Origin: Bacteroidales bacterium
Lineage (GTDB): Bacteria; Bacteroidota; Bacteroidia; Bacteroidales; M50B96
Length of the DNA stretch: 64,000 bases
Assembly (NCBI GenBank): GCA_021740905.1
Contig: JAIOYV010000006.1
Span: 62,001 to 126,000, forward strand
Reading direction: 5' to 3'
The position numbers were made by a program, and so were the translations under genes. Positions 53,483 through 55,148 of the stretch are shown here, piece after piece (position 1 is the stretch's first letter; the number at the start of each line of letters is the position of its first letter). Below the pieces are notes generated by a model, which saw only the letters and a list, made by a program, of their open reading frames with translations, was not told where the DNA came from and made no database searches.

Positions 53483-55057
53483 ATGGGAAATAGTAAAGAA
53501 CCGGACGATGTAGATTTAGAAGTAGTAAATCGTCCATTAACAAAAAACGAGAAAAAGTTATTTAGTGATTTCGTAGAAGAAAAAAAGTTTAATCCAAGAC
53601 CATATATGGAATTGGCAATTGAAGAGATGAATAAAAGTCTCAATGAACCGAGGCTTGATGGAAAAGTACCTCCTAAGGTTGGTGCAATATTATTATTTCC
53701 CGATGGAAAAATTGAAAGAGCACATCGAGGTGAACTTAGAGATGGTGATCATGCAGAATTTACCTTGCTTGAAAGAAAACTCGGCGACAAAAAGCTTGAT
53801 GATTGTATTTTGTTCACTATTCTGGAACCTTGCGTTGAAAGAAACCCACCTAAAATAGCTTGTTGCAAACGAACATCAAAAGCAAGAATTAGAACAGTAT
53901 ATGTAGGAATTACTGATCCAGATCATACAGTTGATGGAAAAGGAATAAAACACCTTGAAAAAAACAATGTAAAAATAATCATGTTTGACAGGGACCTTCA
54001 AAAAATAATAGAAGACGAAAATTCAGAATTTATCAAACAAGCAAACGAAAGAAAGGAGAAGAAAGAAGAATTTGATTTGCTATCTCCGATTGAAAAACCG
54101 GTTAAATATGCAGATTTAAATGATTTCTCTGATGAGGCATTAAACAAGTTTATTTCTGAAGCAAAATTAAACTTTCATATTTCGGACACTTCTTTTCATG
54201 ATTATCTTGCAGATGTCGGTGTTATTCAATTCGATGAGAAAGATAATGTTTACCGGCCAACGGGTTTGGGTATTTTGCTTTTTGGGAAAAATCCAAGGAG
54301 TAAGTTCAAACAAGCAGCATTTATGGCTTCGGTAGAATATGGAAAGAATAAAGTAGAACCAAAAACTTTTGACCAAGCTCTTGTTTTAATCCCTGACCTA
54401 ATTGAAGAATGGCTTTTTAAGGTATTGCCATTGGCAAAAGATACCTCTTCTTTCAAACGAAAAGATATTCCAGGTTTTCCAACAAAAGTTCTTCGCGAAG
54501 CAATAATAAATGCACTTGTACATAGAGATTATATGATTGAGGGTGCAAAATCTTCCATAGAAATTGACGATTTTAAAATTGTAGTTAAAAGTCCAGGTGC
54601 CCCATTACCTTCTATTTCTCTTGAACAACTAAATACATTTAAAGCGCCTTCTATTAGTAGAAATCCAATGCTTACATACGTTTTCAGTTTGATGGACTAT
54701 GTAGAGGAAAAAGGATTTGGCATGAAATCTCTTAGATCTTTATATGCAGTTTTTAATTTACCTCTACCTGAATATTCCTTTGAAGATCCTTTTTTAACCC
54801 TTCGTTTTCCTCGTAATATGGAAGCTATTACCGAAGTATCTGAACGTGAAGGAATAGGCGAACTTAATGATGATGAACTTAAAGGTTTTGAATGGATTAA
54901 AAGTCGGGGAGAAGTTTCGGCCAAGGATTATACCATTCAGTTTGGTATAACTACCAGAACGGCAAGTAGACATCTTAGTAAAATGTTTGAACTTCAGCTT
55001 ATTAAAACAAATGGAGAGAATCCCAAATCACCTAAGTTGAGATACAGTGCAACATAG
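53483..55057 (+). CDS. RibD-like deaminase fused to RecG-C-like GHKL ATPase and winged helix
   Basis: The 524-residue product is AT-rich compared with polA. The N-terminal domain (~40-190) is a cytidine-deaminase fold with H90-A-E92 and P116-C117...C127-C128, matching zinc ligands and the catalytic Glu. The following GITDPDHTVDGKGIKHLEKN segment resembles RibD deaminases. A charged linker (~185-205) leads to a HATPase_c_4-type domain like the RecG C-terminal group (~215-440), with the N-box LREAIINALVHRDY, VKSPG and EEKGFGMKSL. A winged helix closes it (~465-510). No riboflavin genes are near. I infer a nucleotide- or nucleic-acid-acting regulator or defence protein; this is not proven. Confidence 0.8.
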   Translation: MGNSKEPDDVDLEVVNRPLTKNEKKLFSDFVEEKKFNPRPYMELAIEEMNKSLNEPRLDGKVPPKVGAILLFPDGKIERAHRGELRDGDHAEFTLLERKLGDKKLDDCILFTILEPCVERNPPKIACCKRTSKARIRTVYVGITDPDHTVDGKGIKHLEKNNVKIIMFDRDLQKIIEDENSEFIKQANERKEKKEEFDLLSPIEKPVKYADLNDFSDEALNKFISEAKLNFHISDTSFHDYLADVGVIQFDEKDNVYRPTGLGILLFGKNPRSKFKQAAFMASVEYGKNKVEPKTFDQALVLIPDLIEEWLFKVLPLAKDTSSFKRKDIPGFPTKVLREAIINALVHRDYMIEGAKSSIEIDDFKIVVKSPGAPLPSISLEQLNTFKAPSISRNPMLTYVFSLMDYVEEKGFGMKSLRSLYAVFNLPLPEYSFEDPFLTLRFPRNMEAITEVSEREGIGELNDDELKGFEWIKSRGEVSAKDYTIQFGITTRTASRHLSKMFELQLIKTNGENPKSPKLRYSAT

Positions 55058-55148
55058 ACAGGAAGATAGACATACTGTCTATGTTAAAGTTAATAGAGCT
55101 AAAAATAATCCTATACATAGACAAGAACATAGACATGATGTCTATGTT
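55052..55148 (+). repeat. Two palindrome-bearing 34-bp repeats at the end of the deaminase-fusion gene
   Basis: Copies at 55052-55085 and 55115-55148 differ at only 4 of 34 positions. Each ends in an inverted repeat; in copy 2 AACATAGACA and TGTCTATGTT pair perfectly around TGA. The first copy overlaps the stop codon. Both other reading frames stay open through the repeats, so slippage could extend the protein. Confidence 0.75.

Follow-up and report, generated by a model that had tools for sequence, protein, structure and literature searches.

The 64,000-nucleotide stretch of DNA that was analysed, called the window below, carries on its plus strand an intact ORF at positions 53483–55057, which runs from ATG to TAG and encodes a protein of 524 amino acids. 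The initial annotation had described one polypeptide consisting of a RibD-like deaminase, a HATPase_c_4-type domain and a winged helix, and this description was borne out by the ORF, Pfam, an AlphaFold2 model and an alignment of 35 members. The N-terminal third matched Inv-AAD (7.7e-11) and dCMP_cyt_deam_1 (3.7e-8) in Pfam, and the RibD-type zinc deaminase domain was assigned to about residues 34–192 (53582–54058, plus strand) by Pfam and by VIA-align to 2b3z, 4g3m and 9no2. The HAE catalytic motif was found at residues 90–92 (53750–53758, plus strand), and the zinc cysteines lay between PC at 116–117 and CC at 127–128 (53828–53866, plus strand), exactly where the annotation had located them. 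The GHKL ATPase domain covered about residues 300–445 (54380–54817, plus strand) and was defined by HATPase_c_4 together with the N-box and glycine boxes. The Pfam match itself spanned residues 354–440 (9.6e-13, 48.4 bits against a cutoff of 26). The N-box comprised E339 and N343, and the glycine boxes were S370-P371-G372 and G411-x-G413. H90, E92, P116, E339, N343, S370, G372 and G413 were invariant in the 35-row alignment, and A91, C117, C127 and P371 were nearly so. The winged helix, residues 463–521 (54869–55045, plus strand), was predicted from the AlphaFold2 model and from covariation with DNA half-sites, and the protein gave no Pfam HTH match in this part. Pfam found neither a reductase family nor an anticodon nuclease domain in the protein, where a deaminase is present. 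The Schlafen AlbA_2 domain (PF04326) was also unmatched at E 1, and the deaminase occupies its place.

The gene was AT-rich, with 34.2% GC; the window as a whole has 41.8%, and polA, which lies upstream, has 47.2%. AT-richness had been taken as a sign of transfer. However, the next gene downstream, which is lipoprotein-like, had 33.8% GC, so AT content alone was no mark of foreign origin. Promoter-like sites were fewer than in shuffled DNA (2 versus 8). Four PADLOC models, Argonaute- and CARF-related, matched the protein at E ≤ 1, and the best stretches of the Argonaute-model matches fell inside residues 163–447. A prokaryotic Argonaute identity was rejected, as the SIR2 and Piwi families were unmatched at E 1 in Pfam.

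The AlphaFold2 model was built from the 35-row alignment and had a mean pLDDT of 86.2 and a pTM of 0.63. The modelled winged helix consisted of helices at residues 463–475, 480–487 and 491–503 and strands at 507–509 and 519–521. Residues 491–503 formed the recognition helix, which includes S495 and R496 in the window protein. In Foldseek, the top match of the model was DIP2311 (3lmm, 2.8e-12), followed by RibD/RibG deaminases (2hxv, 1.8e-9; 4g3m, 5.0e-9) and then by dCMP deaminase and evolved TadA. VIA-align gave Z values of 20.7–21.2 for the deaminase against 2b3z, 4g3m and 9no2, and residues 36–192 aligned to RibG/RibD 2b3z with Z 21.2 and an rmsd of 2.4 over 146 residues. The structure search that the annotation had proposed therefore recovered a deaminase fold. 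The protein shared with RibD/RibG this fold, the HAE motif, the PC-C zinc motif and the P-x-VGA and DP-x-x-x-V-x-G segments. However, it carried an ATPase and a winged helix instead of the reductase, and no riboflavin neighbours were seen. The NCBIfam RibD model scored 37.8 bits against a cutoff of 156. Residues 196–524 aligned to DIP2311 (3lmm) with Z 22.1 over 295 residues at an rmsd of 9.8, which suggested that the domain arrangement may differ from that of DIP2311. We take DIP2311 itself to be a Schlafen-type GHKL-winged-helix protein.

Relatives of the C-terminal part without the deaminase were scanned with Pfam. All 51 relatives from related genomes and from the phylum contained HATPase_c_4, with SLFN_AlbA_2 in 47 and DUF4062 in 2. 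HATPase_c_4 was likewise present in all of 17 other relatives, with SLFN_AlbA_2 in 10 and DUF4062 in 7. Both sets together gave AlbA_2 in 57 of 68 and HATPase_c_4 in 68 of 68. These results and the fold matches suggested that a RibD-type deaminase and a Schlafen-type ATPase and winged helix are joined in one chain. Since its C-terminal two thirds match Schlafen-type proteins, the protein looks like a Schlafen-ATPase-winged-helix protein in which the RNase was swapped for a deaminase. The order of GHKL ATPase and winged helix was the same as in Schlafen-type proteins (DIP2311 aligned to residues 196–524), whereas the deaminase replaced the AlbA_2 domain. Proteins with SLFN AlbA_2, HATPase_c_4 and wHTH domains are presumably those of COG2865.

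The fusion family is rare, patchy and widespread. The deaminase-GHKL-winged-helix fusion was found at more than 50 loci in several phyla. A pattern scan of genome contigs gave 33 loci in several phyla, as judged by record title, among which L012, L029, L033, L035, L036, L037 and L040 were broken, cut or remnant. Seven more loci came from 395 genomes of the phylum. Within the class, 12 of 395 genomes carried the fusion, the window's own counted, and a thirteenth match (L139) had no deaminase. Genome sets around other centres gave 10 of 372 (one cut), 2 of 355 when the centre is counted and, among 378 genomes, the centre alone. The 35-member set omitted L012, L035, L036 and L037 (broken genes), L033 (cut), L040 (deaminase remnant) and L069 (no ATPase domain), and it retained L029, the start of which was cut off. 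No relative was found on viral contigs. None covering 80% of the query was present among the plasmid matches listed (20 of 81 records) or among the phages (16 records), and the listed plasmid and phage matches lay from residue 149 onwards. In one member (L039:9989–11482), both zinc cysteines were lost while HAE was kept and the ATPase motifs were intact. A short form of 240 amino acids (L004, the same as L069, 80–802) had the deaminase and the winged helix and no ATPase.

Palindromic repeats were found directly behind the window gene. Two sites of TAGACANNNTGTCTA were present in the window when up to one mismatch was allowed, both exact, compared to an expected 0.08; two sites were reached in 1 of 100 shuffles. 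The repeats were arranged as triads, in which a half-site A1 is followed 12 nt on by the same half-site, A2, and then by an inverted one, A', each of 9 nt with 3-nt spacers. Triad 1 (55052–55084, plus strand) consisted of ACATAGACA, AGATAGACA and inverted ACATAGACA at 12-nt steps, and its first half-site overlapped the stop codon of the gene. Triad 2 (55115–55147, plus strand) consisted of ACATAGACA, ACATAGACA and inverted ACATAGACA and lay 63 nt after triad 1. In the 6.54-Mb genome, the 27-nt triad pattern occurred exactly at these two places only, and with up to three mismatches it gave 4 matches versus 5 for the reversed control. A regulon of triads was rejected because the genome held no further exact triad. 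A terminator-like stem on the minus strand over triad 2 was the palindrome itself (2 found versus a shuffle mean of 1.6) and was also rejected.

The 3' flanks of family genes carried the same kind of repeats. A first finder detected one triad or more in 36 of the 39 flanks, compared to 7.8% of shuffles. A strict finder detected triads in 30 of the 39, whereas shuffles gave 14 of 3900 and other genes gave 4 of 338 flanks. Triads paired 56–68 nt apart were present in 23 of the 39 and in none of the 3900 shuffles or the 338 other flanks. Counted among the 39 were the flanks of the window gene, of L069 and of the C-terminal fragments of L012, L035 and L036; the flanks were non-independent, several being from close relatives. 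Arrays mostly contained two or three triads of 9-bp half-sites; in L032 and L034 a triad variant had a shorter centre, and the short form L004/L069 was followed by triads of ATCTCGCCA at an 11-nt step. When both strands of the window and 43 loci were scanned, triads stood almost exclusively beside family genes, with a few strays such as window 47434 and L017 8058. These results suggested that the palindromes, which the initial annotation had rightly noticed and had read as a sign of transfer, instead belong to the system and are probably the cognate DNA array of the winged helix.

Half-sites varied by clade, with ACATAGACA in the window and ACTTGGACA, ATCGCGACA, ATCCGGACA, ATCGGGCCA and ATCCCGCAA among others elsewhere. 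G at position 6 and A at position 9 were invariant in the half-sites of the 35 members, with exceptions among later members. Half-sites were read by eye where the finder gave none (L009, L032 and L034); those of L009 and L011 were re-read, and their labels were unchanged. Half-site labels, which were set after inspecting the data, were compared with every column of the 35-row alignment. Arg at residue 496 corresponded to AC at letters 7–8 in 35 of 35 members (best other column 31), and Arg at residue 495 corresponded to CG at letters 4–5 in 35 of 35 (best other column 34). Four further labels showed nothing special to the recognition helix. One of these, GGG at letters 4–6 (three rows of one clade), matched fully in ten columns across the protein, which indicated that descent alone can yield such agreement; no column matched the remaining three fully. 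On a tree from which the winged helix had been left out, residue 496 and letters 7–8 changed state jointly six times. Three of six independent tree contrasts lay on well-supported branches, and the sign test was not significant (p 0.25).

Members found later were compared with both rules. Repeats of the triad kind followed the gene in all 18; the finder detected them in 12, and in the other 6, missed by the strict finder, they were read by eye (L131, L133, L136, L143, L148 and L149). L127 and L144 were L041 and L024 again, as judged by identity figures and arrays, and were uncounted, and L138 and L140 were one gene. The residue-496 rule held in 14 of 18 and the residue-495 rule in 17 of 18. 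The former failed in L131, L132, L133 and L135, which share CGCCA half-sites; in three the step was 11 nt, and in L133 the order was irregular. The latter failed in L136. L069 also had Arg at 496 with a CGCCA half-site, contrary to the rule. Residue 496 was therefore rejected as an absolute rule. Taken together, it is well supported by these comparisons that the winged helix binds its own array, but not as a finished code.

The array might instead act as RNA: hairpins in the 3' part of the message would bind the protein and serve as an RNA antitoxin or regulatory element. A1 or A2 is able to pair with A'. Among 61 standard-geometry triads, for which G at 6 and A at 9 were required, 60 had the orientation of the gene. 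A1 was identical to A' in 39 of these 61 and A2 to A' in 17, a pattern that would also follow from an outer stem; A1 and A2 were identical in 26. However, the 12-nt and about 62-nt steps fit the helical phasing of double-stranded DNA, and the covarying residues sit in the recognition helix of the winged helix. In L030 and L031 the triads lay upstream, within about 120 bases of the called start. The direct repeats of Schlafen-type relatives also need no hairpins, and no Rfam family exceeded its threshold. A plant microRNA family of Rfam (E 0.026) was far below the gathering score and was taken as chance. We regard this explanation as improbable. In Type III toxin-antitoxin systems, tandem RNA repeats bind the toxin; in a comparison with these, tandem units were seen behind the family genes, and no Rfam family scored above threshold. 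The half-site of L030 and L031, ATCCCGACA, fitted their recognition helix.

Mosaic arrays were observed in L011, L012, L016, L038 and L069, where the first triads were those of the gene and were followed by triads of other half-sites. In L038 and L069 the other half-sites were of the window's ACATAGACA type, as if from lost genes. Such a series of several half-site types, as if genes came and went, would fit an array that serves recombination or integration and lets the gene move as a cassette. However, the half-site type tracks the recognition helix, and no recombinase recurred beside the gene, Phage_integrase being found in 2 of 69 adjacent ORFs. A cassette site seems very improbable.

Repeats were also found behind genes of the relatives without deaminase. 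In 13 of the 51 genes, exact 8-mers were repeated directly at a step of 11 nt in the first 120 nt past the stop codon. Shuffles gave 0.4% and control flanks gave 3 of 345; in the same controls, steps of 12 nt and of 21 nt were slightly in excess as well, at 9 of 345 for each. In the second set, 8 of 17 genes had such repeats versus 0.4% of shuffles. No repeat at any step of 8–23 nt was seen in 30 of 51 and 5 of 17 relatives. The carriers were Schlafen-type and DUF4062-type GHKL-winged-helix genes (L005–L008, L050, L053, L056, L078, L081, L086, L095, L101 and L110 in set one; L141, L151, L159, L162, L164, L165, L167 and L169 in set two). The fusion family resembled Schlafen-type genes in its defence neighbourhoods and in its repeats, which many of them also have just past the stop codon. 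Its triads are direct-direct-inverted at 12 nt, whereas the Schlafen-type repeats are direct and mostly at 11 nt.

The genomic neighbours of the family were tabulated, as had been proposed. The window gene, which lies between polA and the lipoprotein-like gene, had no adjoining defence gene or hsd gene, and several other family members likewise stand alone. By ORF clustering in the fetched DNA of up to 10 kb per side, hsd genes of Type I restriction were found in 12 of 41 loci, a count that excluded L069, and were missing from the other 29. HsdM, HsdS and HsdR clusters occurred in 8 loci each; they were named by eye, and HsdS and HsdR agreed with Pfam and PADLOC. In seven loci (L022, L035, L041, L061, L062, L064 and L065), hsdS preceded and hsdR followed the gene on the same strand, the hsdR start of L061 being taken from the flank sequence. 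Among 69 adjacent ORFs, hand-picked mostly from 153 within 2.5 kb, PADLOC identified 8 Type I restriction enzymes and 6 specificity subunits, and Pfam gave HSDR_N 8, Methylase_S 6, Eco57I 3, DNA_processg_A 3 and SLFN_AlbA_2 2, besides the integrases. The distant set was all 131 ORFs drawn by script and was scanned as 69 (L009–L036) and 62. The 62 showed no restriction family in their complete list of 9 families. In the 69, the 25 of 62 families listed included a Type I and a Type III methyltransferase, one of each, and no Type I restriction enzyme. Because ORF calling relied on length, the neighbours counted in GC-rich loci include some spurious antisense frames. By eye, L027 resembled a Type III locus. 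In L012, L013, L021, L038 and L060, a small gene from a single cluster stood close behind the gene and array; Pfam found it DprA-like in L013. As the annotation had stated for the window, no riboflavin genes were seen among the neighbours inspected or scanned (for adjacent ORFs, the 25 commonest of 74 Pfam families). The immune role that it had thought conceivable drew support from homologues near restriction-modification genes and from the ATPase and winged helix common to Schlafen-type proteins, but not from the window's own neighbours.

The substrate of RibD deaminases is a free, nucleotide-like molecule. The protein might accordingly be a housekeeping or salvage enzyme that deaminates a small nucleotide; the winged helix and its array would then set only the expression of the gene itself, with no role in defence. 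The 29 loci without hsd genes in the fetched DNA and the position of the window copy after polA would fit such an enzyme, as would the operator-like upstream arrays of L030 and L031. However, the gene is patchy, being found in 12 of 395 class genomes, and the same chassis elsewhere bears Schlafen or DUF4062 domains. In most members the array lies behind the gene and not before it, and in seven loci the gene is flanked by hsdS and hsdR. This autoregulated enzyme was considered unlikely.

We consider it probable, with some reserve, that the protein is a deaminase-armed variant of the Schlafen-type GHKL-winged-helix proteins, which is bound to its array and released in infection as a defence. Schlafen RNase-minimal histidine kinase-wHTH proteins are described as anti-phage modules that sense phage signals and cleave tRNAs (PMC12839542). 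The proposal of a deaminase-armed guard held on the array until infection came from the domain parts, this published picture and the position between hsdS and hsdR, which recalls PrrC. The sequence shows the architecture and the array, including its geometry and the way it covaries with the recognition helix; the role in phage defence, the trigger and the deaminase substrate are our inference. The RibD-type deaminase would be the effector in the place of the Schlafen RNase, and the GHKL domain would be an ATP-dependent switch. The C-terminal winged helix would bind the array beside its own gene with a sequence specificity of its own, and the array would hold the protein together in place, probably in a silent state. 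It might be released when a phage infects the cell or when a companion restriction system is damaged. The freed deaminase would then act on a nucleotide or RNA and stop phage growth, much like the guarding by PrrC.

PrrC guards its restriction locus, and PrrC/RloC-type guards of Type I restriction combine an anticodon nuclease with an ABC-type ATPase. The fusion is similar in its position between hsdS and hsdR in seven loci and in carrying an effector and an NTPase on one chain. However, it has a deaminase and not an anticodon nuclease, a GHKL and not an ABC-type ATPase, and a DNA array of its own; hsd genes were found in 12 of 41 loci and none beside the window gene. The window locus without a defence neighbour and the 29 loci without hsd genes in the fetched DNA were counted against the guard reading. 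The post hoc labels, the later rule failures, the weak tree contrasts, the non-independent flanks and the cysteine loss of L039 were counted against it as well.

In a wider and rather doubtful extension, the whole class of defence ATPases with GHKL and winged-helix domains and with Schlafen, deaminase or DUF4062 N-termini would have a cognate array with an evolving recognition code, and the array would serve as a DNA safety lock. If so, the effector would be inactive in the nucleoprotein complex, and the loss, modification or competition of host DNA in infection would free it, the deaminase branch contributing a RibD-type effector. The array would offer a concrete and cheap handle on infection sensing by Schlafen-type ATPases, as the probable ligand of the winged helix is readable from it. 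Under the guard reading, the possible defence effectors would also come to include a RibD-type deaminase, swapped as a domain onto a chassis that until now has been known with an RNase.

In the open-access literature, the titles and abstract starts of the matches listed described neither a deaminase-GHKL-winged-helix protein nor repeats behind Schlafen-type genes. The chassis is already known; what appears to be new is the exchanged effector together with the cognate array. Anti-phage deaminases include dCTP deaminase and RADAR. The fusion is like them in having a deaminase as a possible effector, but neither was among the four PADLOC models that matched. Similar deaminase heads were also observed outside the family, joined to TPR-like repeats in L154:1492–3351 and to another C-terminal part in L157:1072–2010.
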